Virus record (IMG/VR): IMGVR_UViG_3300031857_001375
Location: 1-24,015 of that record
Length of the DNA: 24,015 bases
Direction: 5' to 3' (one strand)
Source of the DNA: a virus
Below the pieces are notes generated by a model. The model was not told where the DNA came from. It did no database searches and saw only the letters and a list, made by a program, of their open reading frames with translations. The position numbers and the translations under genes were made by a program. Shown here one piece after another: positions 3,361 through 20,461 of the stretch. Each line of letters begins with the position of its first letter. Position 1 is the first letter of the stretch.

Positions 3361-3818
3361 CAAAAGATAAAGTTGATTCGATCAAAAGATTCGTTATAGA
3401 TGTTCTTCAGAGAAGCGTTCAGTTTCTCGTGCATGGTGCGAATCACATGCTCGGGAACTTTGCGAGTCCGAGAAGCGTTGCGCTTCAGGCAGGTTTCAAC
3501 AGTCGGGTTGACGACCACGGCTTCAATCTTGGTGTAACCGTAAGACTTCAGAAGAGCGATAGCCTCCTTCCGATAAGACGCTCGATAATGAGTACCGTCC
3601 AGAATAACAGGCATACCGCAAGCTTCAGAAACCAGCTCCTCAATTCGGTCCTGGATTTCCACCCAGTTGCCCTGGATGTCAGCGGAACCGTAGAGTTCAG
3701 CGCGAATGTCGTCACCGGAGATAACAAAAGCATTCTCAGACTCTGCCAGTTCGGAAGCAAAGGTGGATTTGCCGGAGCCGGGAGCCCCGACCATCACGTA
3801 AGCACGGAATTCGTTCAT
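3360..3818 (-). CDS. Polynucleotide 5'-kinase-like P-loop protein
   Basis: 152 residues. Walker A GAPGSGKST (11-19), a general-base type ISGDDIR (34-39), DGTHYRASYRK (74-84), and a lid-like RNASRTRKVPEHVIRTM (113-129) that resembles the kinase domain of T4 Pnkp. The T4 3'-phosphatase domain is absent. It would phosphorylate 5'-OH ends of nucleic acid. The start at 3818 is fixed by the promoter cassette, whose -10 ends 6 bases upstream; in-frame codons further up lie inside the cassette. It is directly followed by a phosphatase gene and, elsewhere, by an RNA ligase gene. Confidence 0.85.
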   Translation of the reverse strand: MNEFRAYVMVGAPGSGKSTFASELAESENAFVISGDDIRAELYGSADIQGNWVEIQDRIEELVSEACGMPVILDGTHYRASYRKEAIALLKSYGYTKIEAVVVNPTVETCLKRNASRTRKVPEHVIRTMHEKLNASLKNIYNESFDRINFIF

Positions 3819-3891
3819 GATATAACTATAGCGTTTTTTGGCCGAAAGGTAAAGGGGGTAAACCGCCCTCCGAGGTACGGTTAACCGCCCT
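3819..3891 (-). promoter_or_regulatory. Terminator-promoter cassette B, leaderless type
   Basis: CGGTTAACCG palindrome, hairpin GGGCGGTTTACCCCC plus TTT, -35-like TTTACC (3853-3848), 17 bp, TATAGT (3830-3825), 6 bp, ATG at 3818. The TAA stop of the upstream gene (3883-3881) is part of the palindrome. Confidence 0.82.
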
Positions 3892-4105
3892 TTCGAGAAG
3901 CTTCGTAGAACCGCCAACGATCGAGCCACTCCTTCCAAGGATTGGAATCGTCGATTACTCCTTGGTCAAGGTTCACAAAGTCTTGAACGATTCGCGCAGC
4001 ATCCTGAAGATCTTCGTCACTCCATGGTTCTTGCGGGAAGATGTTCTGGTTAGGAGTTGCGAGTAGGAGGTTACGCAGCTTGGACTTTAGAATTTCTGTT
4101 GTCAC
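3881..4105 (-). CDS. Unknown 74-residue protein, GTG start
   Basis: GTG at 4105 is preceded by GAGGAGC with good spacing, and lies 35 bases inside the nucleotidyltransferase gene. The protein is acidic and helical, with several Trp residues (WSDEDLQDAARIV, NPWKEWLDRWRFYEAS). Its last codons GGC GGT TAA are part of the repeated promoter cassette, so the cassette supplies its stop. No family recognised. Confidence 0.65.
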   Translation of the reverse strand: MTTEILKSKLRNLLLATPNQNIFPQEPWSDEDLQDAARIVQDFVNLDQGVIDDSNPWKEWLDRWRFYEASRKGG

Positions 4106-4607: not shown

Positions 4608-4764
4608 TGCTGTTGTTGCAGAAGTTGACGTAAAAAACGAGCATTCCAACGAAGCCGATCAACATGAGGACAGTTTGACCCGTAAACAGGGCGCCCAAAA
4701 ACATTCCGAAGAACATAGCGGTGAGCCGGGCACTGAGCCCACACAGGGGGAGTCTGAATTTCAT
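4597..4764 (-). CDS. Small hydrophobic membrane protein
   Basis: 55 residues, MKFRLPLCGLSARLTAMFFG then two hydrophobic stretches (about 17-28 and 31-47) separated by TGQ, ending in a polar NFCNNSNEN tail; two membrane helices are likely. The ATG is 6 bases after the -10 of a promoter cassette, which makes this the first gene of the nucleotidyltransferase operon. Family unknown. The location between a conserved cassette and a coupled gene is the best evidence that it is real. Confidence 0.7.
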   Translation of the reverse strand: MKFRLPLCGLSARLTAMFFGMFLGALFTGQTVLMLIGFVGMLVFYVNFCNNSNEN

Positions 4765-4836
4765 ACTTTAACTATAGCGCCTTTTCGCCGCAGACGAAAG
4801 GGGGTAAACCGCCCTCTCAGGTACGGTTAACCGCCC
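4765..4836 (-). promoter_or_regulatory. Terminator-promoter cassette C, leaderless type
   Basis: Palindrome CGGTTAACCG, hairpin GGGCGGTTTACCCCC plus TTT, -35-like TTTCGT (4799-4794), 17 bp, TATAGT (4776-4771), 6 bp, ATG at 4764. The upstream gene ends GGC GGT TAA inside the palindrome. Confidence 0.82.
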
Positions 4837-5009
4837 TCCTCACTATCAAACGTGAAATACTCGTAGATTTCGCTCATAACGCATTGCTCGATGTGCGCTA
4901 TGATTGACCCTTCGTTCGGATTTTCAACGTGTTTGTGGGCTCGTGCGTATCCCCGTCTCACACCCTGCTCGATTGCCATCTCCAGGATGACTCTAGTCTT
5001 CGGTTTCAT
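4827..5009 (-). CDS. Small conserved cyanophage-type protein
   Basis: 60 residues, IEQGVRRGYARAHKHVENPN in the middle and EIYEYFTFD near the end. I recall similar small proteins (IE.G...GY.RAHKH..NP) in cyanophages, function unknown. The ATG overlaps the preceding gene by 17 bases. The final GGC GGT TAA belongs to promoter cassette C. Confidence 0.7.
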   Translation of the reverse strand: MKPKTRVILEMAIEQGVRRGYARAHKHVENPNEGSIIAHIEQCVMSEIYEYFTFDSEEGG

Positions 5010-8341: not shown

Positions 8342-8944
8342 TTAAGCAAAAGACAAAACAGTGGGCATCTGAGCGTTGTAAGCAAGCTCCTTAAGATTGA
8401 GACGCTTCGCGTCATGAGCGTAGTGGAAGAAACCGCTGTTGGTTCCTTGCCACATTCTGGTCGGATTTGCAGCGTGCTTATCAGCAAGGTTGCCAGACTG
8501 AGCACGCATAGCTTTCAGGGCGCGAGCACACTCGTCGTATGACAGATTCAGGTCGGTTTCAACGCGCCACAGCAGGCGATAAGACTGGTTGCGGAAACGA
8601 CCGTCGTTACTGAAAGTGAAGTAACCGAGCCAGGGCTTCATGTCGAAGTAGTCAAACCACTGAACCATGTCGAGACCAGAAACTTCACAAACGTCAAAGT
8701 CGAGGCCGACAATGGTTTGAGTGCGCCAGCAGAGCTTTTCGAATTGAAGTTCCATCAGGTCGCGACCGTTCAGGAGACCGCCGTAAAAAGGGCAACCTTT
8801 CTCGGTCACAAGGCGAATGAATTCGTGCTCGTGAAGCGACTCCCAGGGACGCTGAATCATACGCTCGCGAAGCTTACCGTACTCCTGCAGAGTTTCGGGC
8901 TTGGACTGACGGGGATCGCCGAGGTGGCAGAGGACTTTGTTCAT
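8342..8944 (-). CDS. Primase/polymerase-like (AEP-type) protein, tentative
   Basis: 200 residues. VGLDFDV (79-85) gives a DxD, SYRLLWRVE (121-129) resembles the strand carrying the second archaeo-eukaryotic primase motif, and NPTRMWQGTNSG (160-171) resembles the conserved NP.R..R.PGT segment of plasmid and phage prim-pol proteins. These together suggest a small primase-polymerase core, with the classic His replaced by Arg (SYR). The start at 8944 is set by the -10 six bases upstream. It is the first gene of the long transcript into the AT-rich island. Another nucleotidyltransferase fold is possible. Confidence 0.6.
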   Translation of the reverse strand: MNKVLCHLGDPRQSKPETLQEYGKLRERMIQRPWESLHEHEFIRLVTEKGCPFYGGLLNGRDLMELQFEKLCWRTQTIVGLDFDVCEVSGLDMVQWFDYFDMKPWLGYFTFSNDGRFRNQSYRLLWRVETDLNLSYDECARALKAMRAQSGNLADKHAANPTRMWQGTNSGFFHYAHDAKRLNLKELAYNAQMPTVLSFA

Positions 8945-9014
8945 GATATAACTATAGCGTGGTTTGGCTGTTCTGGAAAGGGGGCAAACCGCCCTGTCAG
9001 GTACGGTTAACCGT
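8945..9014 (-). promoter_or_regulatory. Terminator-promoter cassette D, leaderless type
   Basis: CGGTTAACCG palindrome, hairpin GGGCGGTTTGCCCCC plus TTT, -35-like TTTCCA (8979-8974), 17 bp, TATAGT (8956-8951), 6 bp, ATG at 8944. The palindrome is inside the last codons of the upstream gene. Confidence 0.82.
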
Positions 9015-9185
9015 CCACTCCTCCCTCCACACCTTCGTAAAATGCCCGCACATGGTGCAGTGACGTTCACTCTGAATTTCGTCGTTTAAGTCTGCGATTT
9101 CATACGTCCCCTTACCGCACCTCTCGCACACTTTACCAGCCATGTTCACACTGCTGAAAAAGCTGAGTTGATTTTCTTGGGTCAT
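8997..9185 (-). CDS. Small zinc-ribbon protein
   Basis: 62 residues: MTQENQLSFFSSVNMAGKVC then CERCGKG and HCTMCGHF, two CxxC knuckles 20 residues apart, typical of a zinc ribbon, followed by a basic and Trp-rich tail. I start it at the ATG at 9185 (ATGA overlap with the 43-residue gene). The alternative start at codon 15 (MAGKVC) would keep both knuckles. The stop lies inside cassette D. Confidence 0.75.
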   Translation of the reverse strand: MTQENQLSFFSSVNMAGKVCERCGKGTYEIADLNDEIQSERHCTMCGHFTKVWREEWTVNRT

Positions 9186-13840: not shown

Positions 13841-13938
13841 GTTGTTTTCGGAAGTTGTTTGAACTGTAAGTATTATAGCGGGTTTTGGGACGGAAGTAAA
13901 GCGGGTAAACCGCCCCGGCAAGGTACGGGAAACCGCCC
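13841..13938 (-). promoter_or_regulatory. Terminator-promoter cassette F, with leader
   Basis: Variant palindrome CGGTTTCCCG, hairpin GGGCGGTTTACCCGC plus TTT, -35-like TTTACT (13900-13895), 17 bp, TATAAT (13877-13872), then about 31 bp to ATG 13840. The only copy with a consensus -10 and a 5' leader. Confidence 0.8.
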
Positions 13939-14384: not shown

Positions 14385-14521
14385 AGGTACTTGAGCTCCA
14401 GGGTTTGAATGATCGGCTCAATCTCACGAGCAGTGTAAGCAGTGGCGCTGTAAACACCGTCAACGTAAATGTCGTATCGGGGACCGAGGTGGGTACGGCG
14501 AACCTTGGTGGTGATTTCCAT
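14381..14521 (-). CDS. Unknown 46-residue protein, first gene after cassette G
   Basis: MEITTKVRRTHLGPRYDIYV then DGVYSATAYTAREIEPIIQT and LELKYL: two beta strands and a helix. Its ATG is six bases after a TATAGT box and its stop overlaps the GTG of the next gene. These two anchors support it although it is short. Function unknown. Confidence 0.68.
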   Translation of the reverse strand: MEITTKVRRTHLGPRYDIYVDGVYSATAYTAREIEPIIQTLELKYL

Positions 14522-14594
14522 GATATAACTATAGCTGGTTTTGGCACGGGAGTAAAGGGGGTAAACCGCCCTGGCGTGGGCGGGTAACCGCCCC
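14522..14594 (-). promoter_or_regulatory. Terminator-promoter cassette G, leaderless type
   Basis: Altered palindrome (GGGGCGGTTACCCG), hairpin GGGCGGTTTACCCCC plus TTT, -35-like TTTACT (14556-14551), 17 bp, TATAGT (14533-14528), 6 bp, ATG at 14521. Confidence 0.8.
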
Positions 14595-14595
14595 C

Positions 14596-14889
14596 TCAGG
14601 CGTCCCCGAACTCTTTCTTCAGGCGTTCGTACTCCCGGCGACGACTGTTTCGAATGAACTCTTCTCTATTGAGACGAGCGTTAAACTCCTCGTCATTTTC
14701 CTCTCTTCGCTTGGTTACCGTAAAGATTGCGGTAACGCAGTCGTAATATCCTCGCTTGGCTTCCAGCTCCACTTGCGTGAAACCTTGTTCCATCGCTTCC
14801 GTCAAATTTGCAATAGCTGTTTGAATGGAACAATAGTCGATGTCGAGTTGACGAGTCTCGGTAATTTGTTGACGTTTTTGCGCAGTCAT
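14596..14889 (-). CDS. Unknown 97-residue coiled-coil-like protein
   Basis: MTAQKRQQITETRQLDIDYC, then NLTEAMEQGFTQVELEAKRG and a highly charged C-terminal helix (REENDEEFNARLNREEFIRN, RRREYERLKKEF). Probably coiled coil. Starts ATGACT. The stop lies next to cassette G. No family recognised. Confidence 0.68.
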   Translation of the reverse strand: MTAQKRQQITETRQLDIDYCSIQTAIANLTEAMEQGFTQVELEAKRGYYDCVTAIFTVTKRREENDEEFNARLNREEFIRNSRRREYERLKKEFGDA

Positions 14890-16336: not shown

Positions 16337-16410
16337 ACCTTTAGTATAGCTCACTTCCCCCGTTTTCGAAAGGGGGGCAAACCGCCCTCCCAGGTACGGT
16401 TAACCGCCCC
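16337..16410 (-). promoter_or_regulatory. Terminator-promoter cassette H, leaderless type
   Basis: Palindrome CGGTTAACCG, hairpin GGGCGGTTTGCCCCCC plus TTT, -35-like TTTCGA (16371-16366), 17 bp, TATACT (16348-16343), 6 bp, ATG at 16336. Confidence 0.82.
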
Positions 16411-17359: not shown

Positions 17360-18433
17360 TCACAGGCCCAACAGGGCGTCGAGCTGCTTGGGCTTCATTT
17401 GCCCCACGAATTCCGTGAAGTTCGCGTACTTGCCGGCACGAATGCCGAACATTGCACCGGAAACATTCGGGTGGTTTTCGAGGACAATGCCCGCAAATTC
17501 CTTCTGGGAGTAACCTTCGTACAGTCGCACGAAGCCCTCAACCATGAACCCGATATCGCCGATACGATCGCGCAAAGCGTTGAACTCTGCGGAATGGTCG
17601 GGGAAGTGCAGCAGGAACTCGTCCAGATCGTCGTTCAGGTACAGCTCGGAGAAGTCAGGATCCCCGTTACCGCGAACGCGATGCAACTGAACGTAAACGT
17701 CGGACTTGACCTTGATTCGGTTACCGTTCGCGTCGCAAACGATGAAGCCTTCGTGGTCGGCACCGCGAGCGTTGACTGCGTCAACGATGTTGTCAGCACC
17801 GAAATTGAAGGACTCAGCCACCCAGAATACGCGGGAGAAATCACCCAGCGGCAACTCTACGAAATCGTTCGCACGATCCCGCACTGCCAGCAGCCGTAAC
17901 ATCGGCTCGTCGTACTTCACAACGATCCGGTTCTCGGCAGCGCACAACTCAAACACGTAGCAGTAATTCGGGTTCAGGTCGAAAGCGTTATAGCGCATGT
18001 ACCGGAAGGTATCCCAGAACAGCTCTTCAAACGACTTACCGGAATCACCAACGCTGCCAGCACCGCCGACAGAACCGGAGGTAGAAACAACCCACTGCAC
18101 ACCGTTCCAGAACAGTTTGATCAGCGAGCCATCATACTTCTCGTATACGTTCGCGGAGGACCAGTCAATCTCATCAGCTTCAGCTTCGCCCAGGTTGAAG
18201 AAACGGTCGAACGCGTAAGCTACCAGAGAGAAACCGTCGTCGTCTTTCTGAACTACGGCACCACGGCAAGCACGCACGATCGGGTTACCCTTGTCGGTAC
18301 CAATTACTCCGTACTTCAGGTTGAACAAACCAGGGAAACGGTCGTCCGTAGAAACGCGGATGTCCAGGTCCGCCAGGCGAGCCAGCCCATAGTCATTCAG
18401 CCAGTTGATCAGGTTGTTTCGCAAGTTATCCAT
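17360..18433 (-). CDS. rnlA-like: T4 Rnl1-type RNA ligase
   Basis: 357 residues, close to T4 Rnl1 (374). YEKYDGSLIKLFW gives motif I KxDGS with the nucleophile at K99; RACRGAVV (54-61) and AFDRFFNLGE (74-83) precede it as in T4; EGFIVCDANGNRIKVKSD gives motifs IV and V. It should seal 5'-phosphate to 3'-OH RNA ends using ATP, typically repairing cleaved tRNA anticodon loops. The start at 18433 is six bases after a TATGCT box. Its physiological partners would be the kinase and phosphatase at 2668-3818 and the tRNA array just beyond. Confidence 0.92.
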   Translation of the reverse strand: MDNLRNNLINWLNDYGLARLADLDIRVSTDDRFPGLFNLKYGVIGTDKGNPIVRACRGAVVQKDDDGFSLVAYAFDRFFNLGEAEADEIDWSSANVYEKYDGSLIKLFWNGVQWVVSTSGSVGGAGSVGDSGKSFEELFWDTFRYMRYNAFDLNPNYCYVFELCAAENRIVVKYDEPMLRLLAVRDRANDFVELPLGDFSRVFWVAESFNFGADNIVDAVNARGADHEGFIVCDANGNRIKVKSDVYVQLHRVRGNGDPDFSELYLNDDLDEFLLHFPDHSAEFNALRDRIGDIGFMVEGFVRLYEGYSQKEFAGIVLENHPNVSGAMFGIRAGKYANFTEFVGQMKPKQLDALLGL

Positions 18434-18504
18434 GCTATAAGCATAGCTCTTTTTGGCCCAGGGGTAAAGGGGGTAAACCGCCCTCCCAGGTACGGTTAAC
18501 CGTC
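18434..18504 (-). promoter_or_regulatory. Terminator-promoter cassette I, leaderless type
   Basis: Palindrome CGGTTAACCG, hairpin GGGCGGTTTACCCCC plus TTT, -35-like TTTACC (18468-18463), 17 bp, TATGCT (18445-18440), 6 bp, ATG at 18433. The upstream gene ends GAC GGT TAA within the palindrome. Confidence 0.82.
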
Positions 18505-18666
18505 CTTTTCGTTATCTTTGATCTCTTTTAGCATATTTTCAATCAAGATCAACCGATTTCCGATTTGCATCAACAGATCAGTCAAACCTTCGATTTCTTC
18601 GTGAATGTCCTGGTGATGAAACCGCAAGGGTTTCTGGATGATCTTACGGAGTTTTGCTTTTTTCAT
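18496..18666 (-). CDS. Unknown 56-residue protein
   Basis: MKKAKLRKIIQKPLRFHHQD, then HEEIEGLTDLLMQIGNRLIL and IENMLKEIKDNEKDG: a basic N-terminus and an amphipathic, leucine-rich helix, probably a coiled coil. I start it at 18666, 15 bases after the Val tRNA, because longer frames enter the tRNA. The stop belongs to cassette I. Confidence 0.65.
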   Translation of the reverse strand: MKKAKLRKIIQKPLRFHHQDIHEEIEGLTDLLMQIGNRLILIENMLKEIKDNEKDG

Positions 18667-18681
18667 TCTGTTATAGAGAAA

Positions 18682-18753
18682 TGCTCCCAGACGGATTTGA
18701 ACCGCCGACAATCTCGGTGTAAACGAGGTGCTCTACCGCTGAGCTATAGGAGC
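18682..18753 (-). tRNA. tRNA-Val(TAC)
   Basis: Acceptor GCTCCTA/TGGGAGC, anticodon loop TTTACAC on stem CTCG/CGAG, T-arm GGCGG-TTCAAAT-CCGTC, discriminator A. Confidence 0.9.
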
Positions 18754-18825: not shown

Positions 18826-18898
18826 TCCGCCGTGCGGGAATCGAACCCGCTATCCAACTCCCTTGTCGGGGTGTCATTGCCATTTAGACTACCGGCGG
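18826..18898 (-). tRNA. Aberrant tRNA-like gene, anticodon unclear
   Basis: Acceptor CCGCCGG/ACGGCGG (one G.A mismatch), D-arm GTC..TGGC..GAC and T-arm GCGGG-TTCGATT-CCCGC are good. The anticodon region CACCCCGACAAGGGAGT gives only a 5-bp stem with a bulge and a 6-base loop without U33. It may be a damaged Glu-like tRNA or a non-decoding tRNA-like RNA. Confidence 0.5.
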
Positions 18899-18970: not shown

Positions 18971-19843
18971 TCAGAACTTAAAGCCCGCGCCAACTACGCC
19001 TACGGGAGCGTAAGCAGTGCCGTTCACACCAGATCCCTTGGTCGGAAACTTGATGTCAGCGAACAGGACGAAGCTATCACTCACACGACCTTCGATACCA
19101 GCCACGAATACGGCCTGGCTGCTTTGACCAACGGTCGACTGGAAGTTGGAACCGGTACCATTTACCAGCGGGAACTGACCACCACCACCGAAGTAGAGGT
19201 TGGCTTTGCTCACCTTGCTACCGTCAGCTAGAGTTGCCGAGGCAATCGACTTGTCGTAGGTGGCCAGGATACCAGCGCCAGCGCCGATTTGACCGGCAGG
19301 GGAACCTGCGAAGTTGAAGTAGGGGCGAGCCGAGATTTCGCCGCCGAGGGCGTTAGCCATGGGGAAACGACCCTGAATAGTGGCACCGCCAATCGTGCGG
19401 TTTTTGGTATAACCGTTGCCATCGACGCCTTGACGGGTCAGGGTCAAACCAGCGCCAAGATAGGAGCCAACATTCTTGGCTTTGCGCTCAGCTTTCAGTT
19501 CGATGGCGGCAACTCGGGCTTGAGTACCGTTCCACTTAGCAGCTTGCTCTTTCAGAGCAGCAGCGAGTTGAGCATCTTTGGCATCTTGGAAATCGCTAAT
19601 GCGATCCACGCAAGAGTTCACCAGGGCAGCCAGTTCAGCACGAGAAGCGGGTTGACCAGCCTTGAAGGTGCCGTTAGGGTAACCGGCAACGCAACCGTAG
19701 CGAGAAACCAGATTGCTAATTGCCTGGTAGCTCCACTCAGTTGGCTGCACATCTTTCAGTTGCGACACGGAGGTCACTTGGGCTGAAGCGGGAACCGCAA
19801 GGGAGACGGTAGCGACGCTAGCAGCAAGGATAGTTTTAAGCAT
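18971..19843 (-). CDS. SLH-domain outer-membrane protein (small cyanobacterial-porin-like)
   Basis: 290 residues. Signal peptide MLKTILAASVATVSLAVPAS, cleavage after ASA (about 21). Residues 22-78 form one SLH domain (SVSQLKDVQPTEWSYQAISN, GCVAGYPNGTFKAGQPASRA), which in cyanobacterial porins binds peptidoglycan-linked polymer. A short coiled-coil spacer follows (80-120), then Gly- and aromatic-rich alternating strands ending GVVGAGFKF, the C-terminal Phe typical of outer-membrane barrels. At 290 residues it is much shorter than host porins (about 500), so the barrel is small. It sits inside the tRNA array, 49 bases after tRNA-Gly. A virus-carried envelope protein is inferred. Confidence 0.85.
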   Translation of the reverse strand: MLKTILAASVATVSLAVPASAQVTSVSQLKDVQPTEWSYQAISNLVSRYGCVAGYPNGTFKAGQPASRAELAALVNSCVDRISDFQDAKDAQLAAALKEQAAKWNGTQARVAAIELKAERKAKNVGSYLGAGLTLTRQGVDGNGYTKNRTIGGATIQGRFPMANALGGEISARPYFNFAGSPAGQIGAGAGILATYDKSIASATLADGSKVSKANLYFGGGGQFPLVNGTGSNFQSTVGQSSQAVFVAGIEGRVSDSFVLFADIKFPTKGSGVNGTAYAPVGVVGAGFKF

Positions 19844-19891
19844 TCTTTATTCAGAACCTGTACAGATTGCCCGATTAGAGTATTCGGGCGA

Positions 19892-19963
19892 AGCGAACGA
19901 TCGGACTTGAACCGACGACATCTAACTTGGAAGGATAGCGTTCTACCACTGAACTACGTTCGC
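19892..19963 (-). tRNA. tRNA-Gly(TCC)
   Basis: Acceptor GCGAACG/CGTTCGC, loop CTTCCAA, T-arm TCGG-TTCAAGT-CCGA, discriminator T. Confidence 0.93.
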
Positions 19964-19967
19964 AAGG

Positions 19968-20040
19968 AGCCCCAAGTCAGATTCGAACTGACGACCGCTC
20001 GCTTACAAGGCGAGTGCTCTGGCCACTGAGCTACAAGGGC
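19968..20040 (-). tRNA. tRNA-Thr(TGT)
   Basis: Loop CTTGTAA on CTCGC/GCGAG-type stem, T-arm GTCAG-TTCGAAT-CTGAC. Acceptor GCCCTTG/TTGGGGC contains a T.T mismatch and wobble pairs. Confidence 0.88.
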
Positions 20041-20092: not shown

Positions 20093-20461
20093 TTAGGCTC
20101 GCGAGTAACACACGTTAATGTGGCCACGGCCAGGATTTGCCAGCGCCTGGAAAGCAGCGTAGGAGAGATCAAGGTCTCGCCCAGCCACGAATGGGCCACG
20201 ATCGTTGATTCGCACGACGACCGAACGGCCCCCGTGAGTTACTCGAAGTCGGGTTCCGAACGGAAGATTACGGTGTGCCGCTGTCAAGGCATAGGTGTTA
20301 AACCGTTCTCCGCTCGCTGTAGTTTGACCGTGATAGCCGTCACCTACCCCGTAATAGCTGGCGCCAGAGCATGACGAAGCTAGAGAAGGCGACGGAGCCA
20401 GGAAAGTCATTCCGGCAACGGCGGCCAAACCAAACAAACCCTTCAGTTTCGAAACAAGCAT
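20093..20461 (-). CDS. RlpA-like double-psi beta-barrel secreted protein
   Basis: 122 residues. [20 protein letters not shown] to about residue 30 is a signal peptide. The rest is one RlpA DPBB domain: [40 protein letters not shown] and [20 protein letters not shown], including the acidic residue of RINDRGPF used by RlpA lytic transglycosylases. No SPOR domain. It would act on peptidoglycan in the periplasm; a role in lysis or wall remodelling during infection is inferred. It has its own promoter, a long structured leader and its own terminator, so it is regulated apart from the tRNAs. Confidence 0.88.

Follow-up and report, generated by a model that had tools for sequence, protein, structure and literature searches.

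A putative wall-anchored protein with a predicted eight-strand barrel, probably one of the alleles exchanged at an outer-membrane-protein slot of cyanophages

The window, meaning the whole 24,015-nucleotide stretch of DNA analyzed here, is an IMG/VR virus record (IMGVR_UViG_3300031857_001375). An open reading frame of 290 amino acids was confirmed on the minus strand at positions 18971-19843 (stop codon included), as in the original prediction, and was assigned to an SLH outer-membrane protein on the basis of Pfam, a structure model and its relatives. All gene, tRNA and leader coordinates of the window given below are likewise on the minus strand. Residues 1-21 (19781-19843) form a putative signal peptide, MLKTILAASVATVSLAVPASA followed by Q, which looks typical when judged by eye alone, carries the cleavage motif A-S-A ahead of that Q, and is the least conserved part of the family. 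Residues 30-72 (19628-19756) constitute an SLH domain, an anchor to peptidoglycan or a secondary polymer (PF00395, E 1.9e-9), that also matches the SLH domain of OmpM1 crystal structure 8bz2 by profile (E 6.7e-14) and by Foldseek. In the structure model, a coiled-coil spacer helix at residues 88-123 (19475-19582), which would be periplasmic, leads to an eight-strand beta-barrel at residues 128-290 (18974-19462), also recognized by Foldseek, with its strands falling within residues 128-289 and its C terminus (...GFKF) ending in Phe. The SLH protein with a coiled coil and a beta-rich, Phe-ending domain that had been read from the letters alone was thus borne out by Pfam and by AlphaFold2.

The AlphaFold2 model was built on an input alignment of 43 sequences, and this structure prediction, originally suggested as a check for a barrel, returned one of the eight-strand outer-membrane type. 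By block, pLDDT in the barrel was mostly 76-95, with 62 in the block containing the last loop, and hydrophobicity alternates along most of the strands in the fashion of membrane strands. Confidence was poor in the SLH part of the model, so the assignment of this domain relies on Pfam and the OmpM1 profile match. The extracellular loops vary just mildly more than the strands, without hypervariability, and therefore carry no signature of a surface arms race.

The gene lies inside a tRNA array, as had been noticed. Directly upstream is tRNA-Gly(tcc) (19892-19963, ARAGORN), the commonest tRNA in this position among relatives, followed by tRNA-Thr(tgt) at 19966-20040; downstream, tRNA-Val(tac) at 18682-18753 borders the slot. 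An atypical tRNA-like sequence, 72 nt past the stop codon (18826-18898), was missed by ARAGORN and scores 30.9 bits in Rfam (gathering threshold 29) with a fold z of -2.1; it seemingly does not have the usual U preceding the anticodon. The 48-nt leader between tRNA-Gly and the ATG (19844-19891) contains the hairpin GCCCGA...TCGGGC. Several relatives have a hairpin plus CTAAATAA at the leader position, and the window leader has the hairpin without a clear CTAAATAA motif. A riboswitch was ruled out, as no Rfam cis-regulatory family was found in the window leader. Upstream of the slot and still within the array, a secreted RlpA-like double-psi barrel protein is encoded at 20093-20461 (Pfam DPBB_1, E 1.9e-27); it is a possible envelope partner and has relatives in 26 Synechococcus phage records. 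Elsewhere in the window, an 89-nt intergenic repeat occurs at 1575-1663, 3805-3893, 4751-4839, 8931-9019, 14508-14596 and 18420-18508, with its core additionally at 13899-13938 and 16370-16409 (6-8 copies in total). It combines GGGCGGTTAACCG-type inverted repeats with a TATAGT-like box just ahead of gene starts and looks like a repeated promoter cassette.

The virus-borne nature of the gene, as originally proposed, is upheld by the virus record and by a 112-kb contig (G010, L002) that encodes an identical protein in a near-identical neighbourhood and is a sister of the window. The DNA polymerase and tail sheath of this contig are closest to those of Synechococcus phage S-CBWM1 (57% and 48% identical, respectively). 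The flanks are therefore not host chromosome, the first of two findings that had been named as speaking against the proposal, and host contamination is excluded by the virus record, this contig and the presence of gp23 in 14 of 21 records checked. No T4 gp23 capsid gene turned up in either the window or the 112-kb contig. From the sequence comparisons, the window phage is most likely a cyanomyovirus of the S-CBWM1 kind and not T4-like. PADLOC matched no known defence system.

The best PDB matches of the barrel by Foldseek were Ail, OmpA, OmpX, OmpW and OprF (Ail 2n2l, E 3.1e-6, a resemblance of fold only), and the modelled eight-strand antiparallel barrel with a C-terminal Phe places it among the OmpA/OmpX/Ail-type barrels. 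Eight-strand barrels of the OmpX/Ail class generally have no open pore. The protein had been thought to imitate cyanobacterial porins at little over half their length. This holds for the SLH part; the barrel is a separate fold and not half a porin. SomA/SomB-type SLH porins (por_somb; WH7803 homologue L200) share with the window protein a signal peptide, one SLH domain, a coiled coil and an outer-membrane barrel ending in Phe, but they are 450-620 aa long and carry an OprB barrel, to which the window barrel has no sequence match. The window protein misses the SomB cut-off (NCBIfam NF033921, por_somb; 84.7 bits against 100) with a match that covers model positions 1-71 of 485, the SLH part only; Pfam found no OprB domain (PF04966) in it, and the model has eight strands instead of the 16 of an OprB-type barrel. 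OmpM1 of Veillonella parvula (8bym, 8bys, 8bz2), in which an SLH stalk and barrel tether the outer membrane to the wall, matches by profile over SLH and coil (E about 1e-13); unlike the window protein, it is a cellular protein with a larger, trimeric porin-type barrel. For the window gene, the combination of a single SLH domain and a predicted barrel argues for an outer-membrane protein instead of an S-layer lattice protein.

A profile of the barrel detected 12 of 12 phage records carrying the short form and none of nine carrying the full-length (long) form. The same profile, which was checked on a positive control, found nothing in nine picocyanobacterial genomes or in 400 genomes of the same host family, and a scan of genome contigs with the barrel alignment (pattern matches only) revealed no relative. 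A host-derived small barrel was ruled out by the contig scan and the 400 host-family genomes, and a truncated or decayed porin by the distinct barrel fold, strong purifying selection and the family's own group in the tree.

The original prediction held SLH porins to be uncommon among phage genes, a view not supported by the 83 short and 80 full-length phage loci that were read. Short-form ORFs are 279-296 aa long and fall into 44 clusters at 90% identity; the full-length porins are 484-502 aa long and fall into 28. Scans of IMG/VR returned 324 matching stretches with the short-form alignment and 506 with the porin of phage S-SRM01; these sets may overlap through the SLH patterns present in both forms, and our conclusions rest on the loci read. 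With its SLH domain, eight-strand barrel and terminal KF, the window protein belongs to the short SLH outer-membrane-protein family of S-PM2 p170 type: the family profile, in which the window is itself a row, matches the window record at E 8.5e-71, and the protein is 53% identical to S-PM2 p170 in the family alignment. The median pairwise dN/dS across the family is 0.17, which together with conservation in 44 clusters shows that the ORF is not a chance one. Median regional dN over whole-gene dS was 0.07 for the SLH domain and 0.16 for coil and barrel. Strong purifying selection that peaks on SLH, along with loops that are not hypervariable, somewhat favours an unchanging partner, for instance the wall polymer.

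A phylogeny against host SLH porins, also suggested at the outset, was run on the SLH region, where only strong branches count given its 63 columns. Every short-form phage sequence lies to the same side of a branch supported at SH-aLRT 99, and the phage long forms are nested among host porins, 25 of 28 of them in one set at 94. The simplest reading is that the short family is old and phage-owned, and that host porins were captured later.

Several named phage proteins can be compared with that of the window. S-PM2 p170 (YP_195203.1, 'putative S-layer protein', T4-like GC 861) and S-CREM1 ORF199 (UYA57656.1, 'iron uptake porin') share its architecture at 279-292 aa and approximately 50-54% identity over 90-93% of the query; both phages are T4-like Kyanoviridae, whereas the window phage is S-CBWM1-like. 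tRNA-Gly lies directly upstream of both S-PM2 p170 and the window gene, and S-CREM1 ORF199, unlike the latter, has no tRNA neighbour. S-SRM01 gp283 ('porin', YP_010670258.1) occupies the same slot between the same tRNAs, but has 486 aa versus 290 aa in the window and matches through the SLH part only (65% identity over 63 aa). A 95%-identical homologue of gp283 carries an OprB domain, and its predicted structure, with 16 strands, matches OprB (best PDB match) and OmpM1. S-CBWM1 gp38 (A0A3G1L3F6; its identity as gp38 deduced from length and product) is a 156-aa protein with a signal peptide and a predicted eight-strand barrel, adjoining an RlpA-like gene and tRNA-Thr. It resembles the window barrel in structure (Foldseek E 8e-7, TMt 0.72), with weak sequence homology (9.4 bits), and has no SLH domain; if its locus is the same slot, the SLH anchor itself is optional. 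The 'S-layer domain protein' of T4-GC 425 (Sullivan et al. 2010) was set aside as possibly different, since its 564-633 nt could not accommodate this architecture.

The window and S-SRM01 have the gene order tRNA-Thr(tgt), tRNA-Gly(tcc), SLH protein, tRNA-Val(tac), as do many contigs, with either form in place. The slot recurs in two unrelated cyanomyovirus lineages and appears to be new. In 21 of 44 clusters the short-form ORF begins no more than 100 nt from a tRNA, compared with 40 of 520 other ORFs at the same loci (Fisher 6e-11, an optimistic p-value since the loci are related). The position of the window gene, directly behind a tRNA-Gly 48 nt upstream, is common in the short family, but not universal, and S-CREM1 and several other short-form loci have no tRNA link. 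The RlpA-like gene is present in 11 of 12 records with the short form and in 5 of 9 with the long form, so that an exclusive pairing of RlpA with the short form is not upheld at genome level.

Leaders are common to both forms, as tgtcgtttagtactaaaaacaaa or close variants precede both short (L003, L004, L010) and long (L009, L089, L099) genes. Short and long genes of one phage group also have in common a structured leader of 80 nt, AGGGG...CCCCT enclosing further hairpins (L012 5909-5992, L166 5887-5992, and L084), which had no Rfam match. Of 43 short-form representatives, 14 have CTAAATAA upstream and 10 have sigma70-like boxes there; among 356 other ORFs the corresponding counts are 7 and 20. 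According to PMC2984593, a second-hand source that covers this one homologue, the S-PM2 gene gives some of the earliest and most abundant transcripts; term searches of two S-PM2 RNA-seq papers (PMC10976474, PMC5931967) and of the S-SRM01 paper (PMC8557907) found no mention of this gene.

In the records checked, the two forms exclude each other: each of 20 phage records (112-284 kb, some of them fragments) encodes exactly one SLH protein, 11 short and nine long, and never both. The exchange is seen directly between loci L166 and L168, with the long form (501 aa), and L018 and L023, with the short form (291 aa), which come from four different data sets. L166/L168 and L018 are 98.5% identical over 5.5 kb upstream, as far as ATG+6, and identity resumes at the stop codon at 99.0% onward; inside the ORF, only the SLH part can be aligned, over about 165 bp and at 70%. 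The comparison with L023 gives the same pattern, with flank pieces at 90-99%. An assembly artefact is unlikely because there are two independent assemblies per side. The difference between L018 and L166/L168 is a near start-to-stop swap of the whole ORF, an eight-strand version for a host-type sixteen-strand porin. Three connected groups of loci, one of which holds L166/L168, share flanks between forms and show fainter, older exchanges.

Altogether, we consider it fairly probable that the window gene is one allele of an exchangeable slot and encodes an exported, wall-tethered barrel that changes or maintains the surface of the infected cell. During infection, the protein would be made with its signal peptide and, after export, would fold as an eight-strand barrel in the outer membrane of the host; its periplasmic coiled coil would carry the single SLH domain that grips host peptidoglycan and its linked polymer, as in host SLH porins. 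The infected cell would gain a phage-made, wall-tethered outer-membrane protein at a time when renewal of its own envelope proteins has presumably ceased. The likeliest effect is that the surface would be changed or maintained during the latent period, rather than a channel opened; candidate benefits are the blocking or hiding of surface sites from other phages or grazers and continued attachment of the outer membrane. The computations establish the anatomy, the viral location, the family, the conservation of the slot, the exchange with a porin allele and the purifying selection. We infer export, membrane insertion, wall binding, timing in the window phage and benefit, and we hold the anatomy and the slot firmly and the benefit loosely. 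Altered permeability, one of the roles first suggested, is less likely for the modelled short form, because the eight-strand class generally has no open pore and it is the other slot occupant that is porin-type.

What the exchanged forms share is a wall anchor and a barrel, not barrel size nor, as is general for such folds, an open channel, which suggests that the anchored barrel itself matters. S-CBWM1, a relative of the window phage, may manage with gp38 and no SLH, so wall tethering may not be essential. We regard as roughly evenly balanced the broader reading that at least two unrelated cyanomyovirus lineages keep a dedicated locus for one infected-cell surface protein, with interchangeable alleles swapped whole in nature (an eight-strand barrel with SLH, a 16-strand porin of host origin with SLH, and possibly a barrel alone), and that this is a phage-run envelope replacement in which the anchored barrel, and not a particular channel, matters. 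If the long form conducts nutrients, the exchange could mean alternative and not equivalent functions.

It is unlikely that the gene is a porin-type auxiliary metabolic gene that aids nutrient or iron uptake by raising outer-membrane permeability of the infected cell. The S-CREM1 homologue is annotated as an 'iron uptake porin', and the other protein that fills the slot is a complete SomB/OprB porin (por_somb 293.5 bits, cut-off 100) with 16 predicted strands and OprB as its best PDB match; the window protein, however, falls below that cut-off, matching by its SLH part only, and has no OprB domain and eight strands like the generally poreless OmpX/Ail. A lysis or release factor, which together with the RlpA-like neighbour would loosen the attachment of the outer membrane to the wall at a late stage, competing with host SLH porins for wall sites, seems equally improbable. 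Of 44 short clusters, 13 have an RlpA-like gene in the upstream flank, as does one of 28 long ones; late-type promoter motifs occur upstream, and competition between SLH domains for one wall polymer is conceivable. However, over half of the long-form records also carry RlpA at genome level, a whole barrel is kept that a mere competitor would not need, and early transcription is described for the S-PM2 homologue (PMC2984593). That the protein is a virion component, the other finding named at the outset as speaking against the proposal, or an adhesin carried in the particle is very improbable: the S-CREM1 virion proteome includes unassigned proteins (PMC9964418) and S-PM2 virion-protein genes start about 1 kb downstream on the other strand, but the signal peptide, the barrel and the Phe at the C terminus are typical of a protein exported to the outer membrane, and the window and S-CREM1 genes lie among tRNA or replication genes, not virion genes.

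The preferred reading, a surface protein of the infected cell, builds on ideas that are already known, namely phage SLH proteins and a protective role, the latter proposed in 2010 for the S-PM2 homologue (PMC2984593). In a literature search made mostly without subscription papers, we found no report of the eight-strand identity, the breadth of the family, the tRNA slot across lineages, the exclusion of porins or the start-to-stop exchange, and the literature consulted on S-PM2 p170 and S-CREM1 ORF199 does not recognize either as an eight-strand barrel or slot allele. Judging by these sequences, many viruses of freshwater and coastal cyanobacteria carry one gene for a predicted wall-anchored barrel, often beside tRNA genes, which suggests that envelope remodelling of the infected cell is a regular part of infection.

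Discussion of the auxiliary genes of cyanophages has mostly centred on photosynthesis, carbon and phosphate, and the outer envelope of the infected cell would be another, widespread target of such genes. Near-identical phages that differ in the anchored barrel they install provide a natural experiment. The barrel finding additionally corrects the database names 'iron uptake porin' and 'S-layer protein', which appear to derive from the SLH domain alone. S-CREM1 ORF199 (OP535465.1, locus L007) is of the short SLH/eight-strand type despite its annotation, and its name probably reflects the SLH domain. One further locus, L169 (CALGUV010000018.1, labelled as a Microbacteriaceae MAG), encodes a porin near the phage long forms with tRNA-Gly(tcc) 184 nt downstream, and although placed in an actinobacterial genome bin it is probably a mis-binned cyanophage contig.
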